A stretch of 64,000 nucleotides of DNA from Gimesia sp. (GTDB taxonomy: Bacteria > Planctomycetota > Planctomycetia > Planctomycetales > Planctomycetaceae). Each line of letters starts with the position of its first letter. Position 1 is the first letter of the stretch. Where the stretch lies: NCBI GenBank assembly GCA_002706765.1, contig PAJV01000039.1:32924-96923 (forward strand), read 5' to 3'. The translations under genes were made by a program, and so were the position numbers. Positions 20,802 to 37,849 of this stretch are shown here, in pieces. The notes beneath the pieces were generated by a model. That model saw only the letters and a program-made list of their open reading frames with translations. It was not told the DNA's origin and did no database searches.

Positions 20802-21094
20802 GTTTCAGCTTTCACGCCTTCCGAGAGTGTTCTGCTGGCAGGTATTGCAGGAATTATATCACCGGCATACTGTGTTTATGAATACATATTGTTGGATTCT
20901 CAATATTTCTCAGGAACTTCCTGTTGTTATTTCCGATCATATTTGTGTATGCTGATACTTATTAAATGTCCTGCCTGAGCTGCTCACCACAGGGGATATG
21001 ACAGAAAAGAAGCTTCCTTTTTATTTGGGAGGCCGATTTCTATCTAACCCTAAATAAATAATCGAACCTTCGATTACCTGACGGGAGAATTCAA

Positions 21095-22504
21095 ATGTCC
21101 CAGCCACTCAATCGATCCCACAATTCCCACGGACTACATCACCAGTCGGGCAGTGGATTTTCCGCGTTTGCCCCTGGCTCTGATCTGGTTCACGTTGGCA
21201 GCCGTCGCTGGTTTCTGCAGATGGGAATGGCGGGTCTCGCCGGTCTCTCGATGCCGGAATTACTCAAGCGACAGGCACTGGCAGCACCGCAGGCAAAACT
21301 TACACATTCGGTTCAGGCCAAGTCGGTGATTATGATCTGGCTGTCCGGTGGACCCAGCCAGCTTGATATGTGGGATCTCAAACCGCAGGCGCCGAAAGAG
21401 ATCCGTGGTCCCTTCAATCCGATTCAGACCTCCGTCAGTGGTATCGAAATCTGTGAGCATATGCCGCAGCAGGCTGCGATGATGGACAAGTTCGCCATCA
21501 TCCGTTCCATGGATGCGACCGCCAGTAACCATACCCCGACCACTTTCCAGGCCTGTAATCCCAAGTCACGCCGCACGAATGACAATCGCGATGGCGGCGG
21601 ATATCCTTCCATGGGTTCAGTCGCCGCGAAATTCCGTGGTCCCAATGTACCGGGTATGCCAGGCTTCGTCGCATTGGCCGACAGCATGGCTGCCGACATC
21701 TATGGGGCCGGCCATCTGGGCCATCGCTATGAACCACTGGATGGCGTCAAGTCAGCCGGAAAATTCGGTATGCCTGACGGTATGCAGACCGCTCGTTTGA
21801 CGGACCGTGAAGAATTACGCCAGCAGTTTGATCGACTGCGAAAACATACAGAGCTCTCGCCCGAACTTTCCCTGCAGGATCGTTATGTGCAGGAAGCGTA
21901 CGACATGGTGCTCTCGGGCAATGTCGCCAAAGCCTTTGATGTGAACCGGGAATCAGCACAGGTTCGCGAAAAGTACGGCAATCATTCCTTCGGACAGAAA
22001 TCGCTTCTGGCCCGCCGACTCGTTGAAGCAGGTGTGACATTTATTACCATGAGCGATGCCTGGGGCCACTGGGATCATCACGGCGACGAAGTCAAATGGG
22101 GCGGCATCAACAAAGGCCTCAAGCCGATGCTGCCGGTTCTCGATCATGGCATCGCCACGTTAATCAGTGATCTCGATGAACGGGGCCTGCTCGATACGAC
22201 GCTGGTACTCGTACTGGGTGAATTCGGTCGTGGTCCCGTCATTACCAAAACCGATGGACGCGGACACTGGACTCCCGTAATGTCGATGCTGGCAGCGGGC
22301 GCAGGTGTACCCGGTGGTCAGGTGATTGGTGCCACGGATCGTCGGGGCGGGGAAATCGCAGAACGCCGACTGGGGCCCGGAGATCTGGGTGCCACCGTCT
22401 TCAAGAAACTGGGCATTGATCCCTACGGTCACTGGATTAAACCGGGCGGACGTCCCACACCACTGGTCGAAGGGCCTTCCGCTCCGATTGCCGAGCTGGG
22501 TTAA
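21095..22504 (+). CDS. DUF1501 family protein, Tat-exported
   Basis: A 469-aa protein with GGGAG 8 nt before its ATG. A Tat-like signal (SRRWFLQMGMAGLAG) sits behind an unusually long polar N-terminus of about 35 residues. The DUF1501 core is clear: MIWLSGGPSQLDMWDLKP, HTPTTFQACNPKSRR, then VLVLGEFGRGPVITKTDGRG and a C-terminal GHWIKPGGRP. The fold is alkaline-phosphatase/sulfatase-like, but the function is unknown. In planctomycetes DUF1501 genes usually sit beside a DUF1549/DUF1553 cytochrome gene; none is here. It overlaps the 3' end of the convergent sulfatase gene by 4 nt. Confidence 0.93.
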   Translation: MSQPLNRSHNSHGLHHQSGSGFSAFAPGSDLVHVGSRRWFLQMGMAGLAGLSMPELLKRQALAAPQAKLTHSVQAKSVIMIWLSGGPSQLDMWDLKPQAPKEIRGPFNPIQTSVSGIEICEHMPQQAAMMDKFAIIRSMDATASNHTPTTFQACNPKSRRTNDNRDGGGYPSMGSVAAKFRGPNVPGMPGFVALADSMAADIYGAGHLGHRYEPLDGVKSAGKFGMPDGMQTARLTDREELRQQFDRLRKHTELSPELSLQDRYVQEAYDMVLSGNVAKAFDVNRESAQVREKYGNHSFGQKSLLARRLVEAGVTFITMSDAWGHWDHHGDEVKWGGINKGLKPMLPVLDHGIATLISDLDERGLLDTTLVLVLGEFGRGPVITKTDGRGHWTPVMSMLAAGAGVPGGQVIGATDRRGGEIAERRLGPGDLGATVFKKLGIDPYGHWIKPGGRPTPLVEGPSAPIAELG

Positions 22505-34511: not shown

Positions 34512-34918
34512 CGTGTTTTTGCCCAGGTAGAGTTTTCAAGGTGAACATGTATTATAATCAAATAGTTGAGCAATACCAGGAGCAGGGTGTCCCTGCAGAG
34601 TCGAACGGCACTCGATAATTTGCAGCGATATTTCAACAACAAACAATCATTTTGTTCTGTTTTCCGGATCAACCTTTCCCATTAAGGCTAAGTCGACCCC
34701 TGATCGGGGTGGCATTGTCTTTGTGGGGGCTGGGATGCGGGTGACCGGTCTGCTGTGTTTCCGGGTGGATCTTACCGATGCCGGTTGGCTCAGATCGCTG
34801 CACAGGAAGCATGGTGCTGGTTGAAATCAACTGCGGCGTTTTGCCGGACCTGAGGCGGGGAGGTCCGCAGATCGACTTGTAATTGACTGCAGTTTGCAGT
34901 ATCTCTCCGGAAAACCTC
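34512..34918. other. Intergenic, hairpins only
   Basis: No gene. Small hairpins: ACCCC-TGATC-GGGGT (34696-34710) and GGACCT/AGGTCC (about 34849-34869). Part of an 880-bp gap between the HNH nuclease and the sensor kinase. Confidence 0.4.
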
Positions 34919-35140
34919 TCAAATCTTCAGGAGATCCTGTTCGAGCTTGTCAGTGATCTGTTGGCGATCCCTTTCGGAGTTGTTGAGACGGTAGGCGAGC
35001 AGGTAGAAACGCTGTTGATGAGATCGTTTCTGTCCATGTCTGCCTGGATATTCAAAGCTCGATTGGAATGAGTATTTCCCCTGCCATTTGAAAAATATAA
35101 GTATTGAGAAAATCAAATCTGCTGTATACACTAAACTCAC
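34919..35140 (-). other. Possible gene remnant
   Basis: A 73-codon minus-strand frame from GTG with no ribosome site. Its C-terminal half is protein-like and helical (RFYLLAYRLNNSERDRQQIT, DKLEQDLLKI); its N-terminal half is not. It may be the tail of a decayed gene. I do not recognise it. Confidence 0.15.
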
Positions 35141-35202
35141 AAAATACCTGTCCCATGGTTGTCGGCCCGGTATGGATCAGGTTTGTGGCTGAGGACGGTC
35201 AA

Positions 35203-35392: not shown

Positions 35393-37849
35393 ATGATTGA
35401 GTTCTTTTCGAAGCTCTTTGATACATCGGACTATCCTGCGCGCTGGAATTGTGGCAACTGGACGAGTGGTGAAGGCTGGCTGCACATTCTTTCCGATATC
35501 GGTACGTGGTCCGCTTATACAGCGATCCCGATCGTGCTGATCTATTTCACCTATAAACGGAGAGATATTCCCTATCCCAGACTGTTCAGTTTATTTGCAG
35601 CTTTCATCCTGTTGTGCGGCGCGGTCCATCTGGTTGAAGCGATCATTTTCTGGTATCCGATTTATCGGATTTCAGGATTGTTGAAACTGGCGACGGCAGT
35701 GGTCTCGTGGGCCACTGTGATTGTATTAATCAGATATACGCCACACCTATTGCAGATACCCTCGATCGCAGTCACCAACAAACGTCTGGTAGAGGAAGTT
35801 GAACAGCGAAAAGTCATCGAACGGGATCTGCGCTGGATGCAATCCCGGTATGAGGCGTTTTTAACCGGCACCAGCAGTATTATCTGGACCACAGATCCGC
35901 GGGGGAATTTTATTGTCCCCCAGGTTTCCTGGCAGCGTTTCACGGGACAGACCTGGGAAGATCACCAGGGGGACGGCTGGCTGAAAGCGCTGCTGCCGGA
36001 AGACCGAGCGGAACTGGCTGCGCTGTGGAGTAAACCGATCGGGAAGCAGACCTGTTTTCGGGTGCATGGGCATATCTGGCACGCGGAGAGCGAGTCCTAT
36101 CGCCCCGTGATTACCGAAGCCGTCCCCGTATTTGATGAGGAAGGGCAAATCCTGGAATGGGTGGGCACGGTCAGTGATATTCATGAGCAGCGAATGGCGG
36201 AAGAAAGCCTGAGCGCCGCCGAGGCAGAGTCCAGCCGGCAGAAACGGGAACTGGAGCTGATTTATGATACCGCACCTGTGGGGATGGGGCTGGTGGATCG
36301 CGAATACCGTTATATGCGGATCAATGATACCCTGGCCCGCATTAACGGGATTCCCCGGGAAGCACACCTGGGGCGCGTCTGTTTCGAGTTGATTCCCGAA
36401 CTCGCGGAGCGAATCAAACCACTCTACGATCAGGTATTTCAGACTGGTAAAGCGGTGAAAAACCAGGAAGTACGCGGCAAGACTCCCGCCAGCGAAACGG
36501 AACGCTGCTGGCTGGTGAACTATCATCCGATGACGCACAGGACTGGTGAGGTCTGGGGTGTGAGTTCGACTGTTCAGGACATTACTGACCGCAAAGAAAT
36601 GGAAGAAGCATTACGGGACAGCGAGCAGCAGGCGTCGCAGGCGAATCTTGCCAAGAGTGAATTTCTGGCAAATATGAGTCATGAAATTCGGACTCCCATG
36701 GCTGCAATCCTGGGGTACGCCGACGTTTTGATCGGGCATCTGAGTGACCCCGATAATCTGAACTGTGTCATGATCATGAAGCGGAATGGAGAACACCTGC
36801 TGGAGCTGATTAATGACATCCTGGATTTATCACGCATTGAAGCGGGTAAACTCGAAGTGGAGTTGAAAGAGGCACCACTGCGTGAACTGGTTGCTGACGT
36901 CCAGGCACTGATGCAGGTTCGTGCGGACGAAAAGAATCTGATGTTGAATGTCAAATTCTCCGGACAGGTTCCAGAAACGATCATCACGGATTCCACCCGA
37001 CTGCGACAGATCCTGATCAATCTGATCGGAAATGCCATCAAATTTACCGAGCATGGCGAGGTTCGCCTGGTGATCAGGCTGCACTCCGATTCTGAAAAGC
37101 CGATGATCGAATTTGCCGTCCAGGACACCGGCATCGGCATGAGTGAAGACCAGATCCAGCGCCTGTTTAAACCTTTTTCGCAGGGAGATTCTTCGGTCAC
37201 ACGCGCTTATGGAGGCAGTGGTCTCGGACTGGCAATCAGCAAACGCCTGGTGCAGATGCTCAAAGGCCAGTTAAAGGTGAAGAGTGAAACCGGCCAGGGC
37301 TCTGTCTTTCGGGTCCGTATTCCCACGGGTCCCATTAAAGGCATTCCACTGATTGAGTCCGGAATTCTGGAACGAAAATCAAATGCGGGCGAAGCTGTTT
37401 CGAAAATCCATCGTCTGAATTGCCGGGTGCTGGTTGTGGACGACCGTCGTGAAGTCCGGCATATCAGCCAGCACTTTCTGGAAAAAGCCGGTGCCTCAGT
37501 CGCTTCAGCCGAAGATGGTCAACAGGGCATCGACATGGCATTGATTGCCCGTGACGCAGGTGATCCGTTTGATGTGATCCTGATGGATATGCAGATGCCT
37601 CAGGTGGATGGTTTACAGGCGATTGCAGAACTGCGGGCTGCCGGCCTGGATTCGCCGATTATCGCGCTCACTGCCGATGCGATGAAAGGGGACCGCGAAC
37701 GCTGCCTGCAGGGAGGTTGCGATGATTATTTATCCAAACCCATCGATCACGGGCAGATGGTAGAGATGGTCTGGCGGTATTCTGAGGAAGTCACCGCAGA
37801 CGCGCTCCAGGTACAACGTCAGGAGCAGGCGGCTCGCTTCCGGAATTAA
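35393..37849 (+). CDS. Hybrid histidine kinase with ETR1-like (ethylene-binding-type) sensor domain
   Basis: An 818-aa hybrid kinase. ATG at 35393 has AAGG 8 nt upstream; a GTG at 35378 is the alternative. The N-terminal membrane domain (about residues 30-120) matches the plant ETR1 ethylene-binding domain: LSDIGTWSAYTAIPIVLIYF in helix 1, AAFILLCGAVHLVEAIIF in helix 2, TAVVSWATVIVLI in helix 3. ETR1 residues Asp25, Ala31, Tyr32, Pro36, Ile62, Cys65 and His69 correspond to Asp35, Ala41, Tyr42, Pro46, Ile72, Cys75 and His79, a constant offset of 10; Cys65 and His69 bind the copper cofactor. Cys99 and Ala102 are replaced by Trp and Val. Two PAS domains follow (about 150-265 and 285-400), then HisKA (MSHEIRTPMAA, His about 430), HATPase (NAIKFTEHG, GGSGLGLAI) and a receiver domain (phospho-Asp about 732 in ILMDMQMP). 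Confidence 0.92.
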   Translation: MIEFFSKLFDTSDYPARWNCGNWTSGEGWLHILSDIGTWSAYTAIPIVLIYFTYKRRDIPYPRLFSLFAAFILLCGAVHLVEAIIFWYPIYRISGLLKLATAVVSWATVIVLIRYTPHLLQIPSIAVTNKRLVEEVEQRKVIERDLRWMQSRYEAFLTGTSSIIWTTDPRGNFIVPQVSWQRFTGQTWEDHQGDGWLKALLPEDRAELAALWSKPIGKQTCFRVHGHIWHAESESYRPVITEAVPVFDEEGQILEWVGTVSDIHEQRMAEESLSAAEAESSRQKRELELIYDTAPVGMGLVDREYRYMRINDTLARINGIPREAHLGRVCFELIPELAERIKPLYDQVFQTGKAVKNQEVRGKTPASETERCWLVNYHPMTHRTGEVWGVSSTVQDITDRKEMEEALRDSEQQASQANLAKSEFLANMSHEIRTPMAAILGYADVLIGHLSDPDNLNCVMIMKRNGEHLLELINDILDLSRIEAGKLEVELKEAPLRELVADVQALMQVRADEKNLMLNVKFSGQVPETIITDSTRLRQILINLIGNAIKFTEHGEVRLVIRLHSDSEKPMIEFAVQDTGIGMSEDQIQRLFKPFSQGDSSVTRAYGGSGLGLAISKRLVQMLKGQLKVKSETGQGSVFRVRIPTGPIKGIPLIESGILERKSNAGEAVSKIHRLNCRVLVVDDRREVRHISQHFLEKAGASVASAEDGQQGIDMALIARDAGDPFDVILMDMQMPQVDGLQAIAELRAAGLDSPIIALTADAMKGDRERCLQGGCDDYLSKPIDHGQMVEMVWRYSEEVTADALQVQRQEQAARFRN

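Follow-up and report, generated by a model that had tools for sequence, protein, structure and literature searches.

A hybrid histidine kinase with an ETR1_N membrane domain

The window, a 64,000-nt stretch of DNA from a Gimesia genome assembly (7.9 Mb in 78 contigs), carries on its forward strand a gene for an 818-residue protein (hereinafter designated the Gimesia kinase). The reading frame is open throughout, and an in-frame GTG lies 15 bases upstream of the ATG start. The protein consists of an N-terminal membrane domain of the Pfam family ETR1_N, two PAS regions, HisKA, HATPase_c and REC (Table 1), and displays the complete set of features of a bacterial hybrid histidine kinase: an H-box with His430 as the putative phospho-acceptor, N, G1 and G2 boxes that we read as LIGNAIKFT, DTGIGM and GSGLGL, and a receiver domain in which Asp732 of the stretch DVILMDMQMPQ is the likely phospho-acceptor. 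The PAS-HisKA-REC layout given in a first-pass annotation of this DNA is correct in the parts that it names but incomplete, as there are two PAS regions and, in addition, an HATPase_c domain. A GAF domain following the membrane domain, a trait of plant ETR and ERS receptors, is absent among the 14 Pfam families that match the protein at E <= 1; PAS occupies that place instead.

Table 1 Features of the Gimesia kinase gene (positions in the window).
Feature	Residues	Position	Strand	Basis or remark
Hybrid histidine kinase ORF, ATG start	818 aa	35393..37849	+	ETR1_N-PAS-PAS-HisKA-HATPase_c-REC
ETR1_N membrane sensor domain	28-122	35474..35758	+	Pfam PF25487; AlphaFold2 helices
Asp35 (ETR1 Asp25)	35	35495..35497	+	Alignment
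Tyr42, Ile45, Pro46 (ETR1 Tyr32, Ile35, Pro36)	42-46	35516..35530	+	Alignment; helix 1 conserved face
Ile72, Cys75, Gly76, His79 (ETR1 Ile62, Cys65, Gly66, His69)	72-79	35606..35629	+	Alignment; conservation
Lys98, Thr101, Ser105 of helix 3 (ETR1 Lys91, Thr94, Ser98)	98-105	35684..35707	+	Alignment; conservation
Predicted signalling helix, membrane domain to first PAS	125-155	35765..35857	+	AlphaFold2 model
PAS region 1 (PAS_3)	179-260	35927..36172	+	Pfam
PAS region 2 (PAS_4)	292-402	36266..36598	+	Pfam
HisKA	420-485	36650..36847	+	Pfam; H-box SHEIRTPM starts at residue 429
HATPase_c	533-645	36989..37327	+	Pfam and motif reading
REC	679-793	37427..37771	+	Pfam

With a score of 119 bits, where the cut-off is 27, the ETR1_N profile matches the protein over profile positions 3-97 (95 of 97 positions). 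The E-value of 1.1e-34 is far beyond chance and bears out the original reading of an ETR1-like N-terminal sensor by the profile comparison proposed with it. The same family search of 14 control genomes returns zero matches.

Aligning the domain with the N-terminus of Arabidopsis ETR1 yields 37 identities among 104 aligned residues. In this alignment all of the residue pairs named in the first-pass annotation hold (ETR1 D25, A31, Y32, P36, I62, C65 and H69 with Gimesia D35, A41, Y42, P46, I72, C75 and H79, respectively), as do the likeness of the CGAVH motif to the plant CGATH, the deviations at C99 (W106) and A102 (V109), and a loop between helices 2 and 3 that is three residues shorter than in ETR1. 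The alignment further retains ETR1 I35, K91, T94, S98 and P110 (I45, K98, T101, S105 and P117), and Gimesia G76 (ETR1 Gly66) and A102 are additional positions in the mapping. ETR1 A31, I62, C65 and A102 are sites of classical etr1 alleles, and Cys4 and Cys6 of the ETR1 N-terminus lie outside the aligned region. The seven residues on which ethylene binding by AtETR1 is reported to depend (D25, Y32, I35, P36, I62, C65 and H69) have counterparts throughout in the Gimesia kinase (D35, Y42, I45, P46, I72, C75 and H79). The copper site of ETR1 comprises Asp25, Cys65 and His69 according to one study (PMC12643061), and a modelling study has the copper held by C65 and H69, with infrequent contact to D25 (PMC6586836).

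Conservation and predicted geometry of the site

Bacterial relatives of the domain were collected by a profile search of genomes, a contig scan with DNA patterns and a plasmid search, giving an alignment with 138 rows of the domain from bacterial DNA; 128 rows are unique, the Gimesia query copy included. Among the 37 ETR1_N places found in the phylum, 32 yielded loci (30, plus 2 from other searches). The contig scan covers 80 of 150 relatives with patterns that span the D25 and I62 columns, so that these rows are biased; the plasmid rows represent 8 of 18 matching records. The complete seven-residue set occurs in 117 of the 128 unique rows, namely in 39 of 46 planctomycete rows found with Pfam (which include the query copy, L002), 70 of 74 pattern-found rows and 8 of 8 plasmid rows. 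The D/C/H copper ligands occur together in 124 of the 128 rows, and the helix 3 equivalents of ETR1 Lys91, Thr94 and Ser98 are kept in 120, 125 and 128, respectively.

Taken singly, the copper ligands are among the best-kept positions (H in 128, C in 127 and D in 125 of 128 rows), a pattern that could also point to a copper or copper-redox sensor, for which Cu(I) occupancy would be the signal and ethylene incidental. For many of the lineages that host ETR1_N we know of no tie to ethylene, and Cu(I) alone is reported to rigidify ETR1 (PMC12643061). However, the rest of the pocket is kept nearly as well (Y42, I45, P46 and I72 equivalents in 128, 127, 124 and 123 of 128 rows), the seven neighbouring proteins that we scanned include no copper-handling one, and we regard a copper sensor as unlikely.

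Of the 128 rows, 92 have W at ETR1 position 99 and 102 have V at position 102. None of the eight plasmid rows, which come from alpha- and betaproteobacteria and cyanobacteria, has W at position 99, suggesting that this residue is mainly a planctomycete-type trait. We considered W106, V109 and the short loop as marks of lost function and rejected this reading, because all three are common among the aligned rows and because AzoEtr1 of Azospirillum brasilense, which binds ethylene, likewise lacks Cys99 and the plant loop.

The 11 rows without at least one of the seven residues are natural candidates for lost or altered ligand binding, and some of them may be non-binding. The set is broken at P36 in L026, L022 and L024, at I62 in L016, L006 and L126, and at both in L108. 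L029 departs at D25, I35 and I62, L128 carries E in place of D25, and L121 carries S in place of C65. The remaining row, L028, is broken at D25, where a match starting at profile position 12 makes an alignment effect conceivable.

AlphaFold2, run on a 59-row alignment as a monomer, predicts helices at residues 25-55, 62-84, 91-119 and 125-155; the best model has a mean pLDDT of 94.3 and a pTM of 0.73, and the five models span 94.3 to 74.7. The inward-facing side of each helix was gauged by conservation moments, as a proxy. The moment of helix 1 is equalled by 5 of 5000 shuffles, with D35, Y42, I45 and P46 deviating from the conserved face by 43, 23, -36 and 63 degrees; that of helix 2 is equalled by 3 of 5000, with I72, C75 and H79 at 35, -24 and 15 degrees; and that of helix 3 is equalled by 64 of 5000, with K98 and S105 at -5 and -25 degrees. 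By this proxy, all seven residues map to the conserved sides of helices 1 and 2, and C75 and H79 deviate by no more than 25 degrees from a helix 2 face that is presumably buried; an orientation towards lipid is what the first-pass annotation had named as speaking against its proposal. The angles fit an inward-facing site. Solved structures give three matches by sequence, the best at E 0.14 and no relative among them, and 97 matches by fold at E <= 10, zero of which reach E <= 0.001; none of them anchors the geometry of the site.

Orthologues, neighbourhood and distribution

Seven orthologues stood out by similarity. The two near ones (L138 and L139) are 89-90% identical to the Gimesia kinase, with dS of 0.81-0.96 and dN of 0.051-0.057, and the gene is under purifying selection. 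All parts of the protein are 87-93% identical in these two comparisons, with no excess in the sensor. Against the four deeper full-length orthologues (L140, L141, L143 and L144), for which dS is near saturation, the sensor retains 78-79% identity, compared with 61-64% for PAS, 72-73% for the kinase and 71-72% for REC. That the sensor is the best-conserved part at this depth, and that its seven binding residues are all retained, argues against a domain that merely anchors or dimerises the protein in the membrane while PAS does the sensing. The two PAS regions downstream would suit such an arrangement, and the PAS domains could be carriers of the main signal; a plain anchor nevertheless strikes us as highly improbable.

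Much of the neighbourhood of the kinase gene is also present in L138 and L139, the HNH gene in L139 only. The four deeper orthologues share solely a 39-40% match to the distant ORF at 21062-22504, and the contig of L142, which is cut inside the kinase gene, has no other ORF in common. The seven neighbouring proteins scanned are M56 peptidase-like, weakly BNR-like, HNH and DUF1559 proteins, a PMT_2/TPR protein, a weakly CarboxypepD_reg-like protein and a transaldolase; two small ORFs at 34669-35176 lie outside the scan. None of the seven is a response regulator, and the first-pass annotation, which assigns no signalling partner, stands on this point; none of the seven is ethylene-related or copper-handling. 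A copper ATPase model finds six matches in the Gimesia genome, three of them over the cut-off, which we do not count as evidence because all 14 control genomes match as well.

The same genome encodes a second ETR1_N kinase (G000:C58, L049:6968-11083), a protein of 1371 residues with several PAS domains, HisKA, HATPase_c, two REC domains and Hpt. Judged by its domains, it would combine a sensor of the ethylene-receptor type with all steps of a phosphorelay. Its sensor (L001) is identical to that of the Gimesia kinase at 66 of 115 residues and keeps the seven residues.

Of the 17 genomes of the genus, 11 carry ETR1_N, with up to three copies each, and 6 lack it. Across the phylum it is present in 28 of 294 genomes, the Gimesia genome counted, and it occurs in 14 of 194 and 14 of 198 genomes of the phyla of Haloferula and Mucilaginibacter, respectively; these two were picked as centres for having ETR1_N, and both are counted. 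Matching contigs bear the titles Verrucomicrobia, Bacteroidetes, Omnitrophota, Acidobacteria and Chlamydiia, or those of members thereof. The plasmid search returned 18 matching records, all below 60% identity, whose hosts include Azospirillum, Pseudanabaena, Acaryochloris, Kovacikia and Rhizobium. The first-pass annotation placed ETR1-like proteins in plants and cyanobacteria; the statement is too narrow, as they are on record from proteobacteria and fungi too.

Among the 80 of 150 relatives covered, the best tblastn E-value, with an uncultured Gimesia MAG set aside, belongs to an Omnitrophota MAG contig (L051:2540-4147), with 60% over 109 residues; some planctomycete matches have a higher identity over a shorter stretch. 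Shared descent, transfer or a mis-binned contig could each account for it. On plasmid pMB01 of Acaryochloris 'Moss Beach' (L134:3031-5513), the annotation divides an ETR1_N kinase into three successive CDS (a hypothetical protein, a HisKA part and an ATP-binding part), and the gene looks broken or fragmented.

In a tree of 129 rows, the Gimesia domain falls in a supported set of eight rows (SH-aLRT 97), and its five nearest rows all belong to the same genus. The alignment has few columns and 63 of the 126 inner branches are open, and for these reasons the tree does not place the joins among bacterial, cyanobacterial and plant members. The Gimesia kinase adds one more bacterial protein to a known family, already in Pfam, and is not a new type of system; the breadth of ETR1_N in the group of Planctomycetota and Verrucomicrobiota is the mildly new part. 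By title, none of the literature matches listed deals with a planctomycete ethylene receptor, and surveys of bacterial homologues may mention one.

Proposed mechanism and relation to known receptors

The Gimesia kinase resembles Arabidopsis ETR1 in its three membrane helices, the seven binding residues, the CGxxH motif and the Lys/Thr/Ser of helix 3. It also shares C-terminal histidine kinase and receiver parts with ETR1 (PMC12643061, PMC6586836). It departs from ETR1 in having W at position 99 and V at 102, a loop before helix 3 that is three residues shorter, and PAS instead of GAF.

In AzoEtr1 (L130), Pfam likewise identifies ETR1_N (E 9.8e-39), with PAS, HisKA and HATPase_c after it; its sensor is identical to the Gimesia domain at 44 of 113 residues. 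The seven residues and the short loop are common to both, whereas AzoEtr1 has V at position 99 and A at 102 where the Gimesia kinase has W and V. AzoEtr1 lacks REC, and its response-regulator gene is separate and overlapping (PMC11819568); in the Gimesia kinase, by contrast, REC is part of the protein, and the scanned neighbours include no regulator. In the same study, the first 130 residues of AzoEtr1 expressed in Pichia confer saturable 14C-ethylene binding, and azoetr1-disrupted cells display little or no saturable binding (PMC11819568).

SynEtr1 of Synechocystis and GeiEtr1 and GeiEtr2 of Geitlerinema likewise have a bacterial sensor domain on a histidine kinase; we compared them by description, the cyanobacterial rows in our alignment being three plasmid homologues (L131, L132 and L134). 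Cyanobacterial members are reported to bind ethylene, GeiEtr1 and GeiEtr2 keep the seven residues, and GeiEtr2 also has PAS and receiver parts (PMC6682694). The three proteins carry GAF or cyanobacteriochrome parts, unlike the Gimesia kinase.

Cu(I) chemistry is general, and a different small pi-acceptor, such as another alkene, CO or isoprene, might be the true signal. W106, V109 and the other differences from the plant domain would be compatible with such a ligand, but AzoEtr1 and the cyanobacterial members, which are bacterial and reportedly bind ethylene without plant-level identity (PMC11819568, PMC6682694), argue against it, and we consider it quite unlikely.

Because the copper-site residues are kept together with the other residues of the pocket, the best reading of the domain is Cu(I)-dependent binding of ethylene or a similar olefin. 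The patchy occurrence of ETR1_N, the 11 of 128 relatives with an incomplete set, the monomeric nature of the models and the spread of their pLDDT count against it, as do the seven scanned neighbours, which give no hint of ethylene and, unlike in AzoEtr1, no adjacent response regulator. On balance, and from sequence features, the Gimesia protein is likely to be a Cu(I)-dependent ethylene- or olefin-binding hybrid kinase, with ethylene or a comparable small gas as its probable signal.

In the mechanism that we infer, from copper and ligand through dimer and signal path to partner, a dimer of the three-helix domain would hold Cu(I) between Cys75 and His79 of helix 2, near Asp35 of helix 1. Ethylene or another small olefin would bind the copper in a pocket lined by Tyr42, Ile45, Pro46 and Ile72, and the altered helix packing would be conveyed by helix 3, with Lys98 and Ser105, to the long signalling helix. 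This helix would act through the two PAS domains to set autophosphorylation of His430, from which the phosphate would pass to Asp732 of the attached REC and on to an unlinked Hpt or response regulator.

The single Gimesia gene is ordinary for its kind, and the wider spread is worth noting. We tentatively put forward, at somewhat short of even chances, that sensing of ethylene or small olefins by Cu(I) receptors is widespread in Planctomycetota/Verrucomicrobiota and Bacteroidota, with Gimesia-type planctomycetes relying on between one and three of these kinases in each cell, some of them containing an entire phosphorelay, to perceive ethylene given off by algae or by organic matter in decay. 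Cultured isolates of Gimesia exist, with algae among their sources (PMC7716864), and the idea is therefore directly testable. If it is true, ethylene would be a signal for bacteria well beyond the plant-associated and photosynthetic ones studied in the literature that we consulted.
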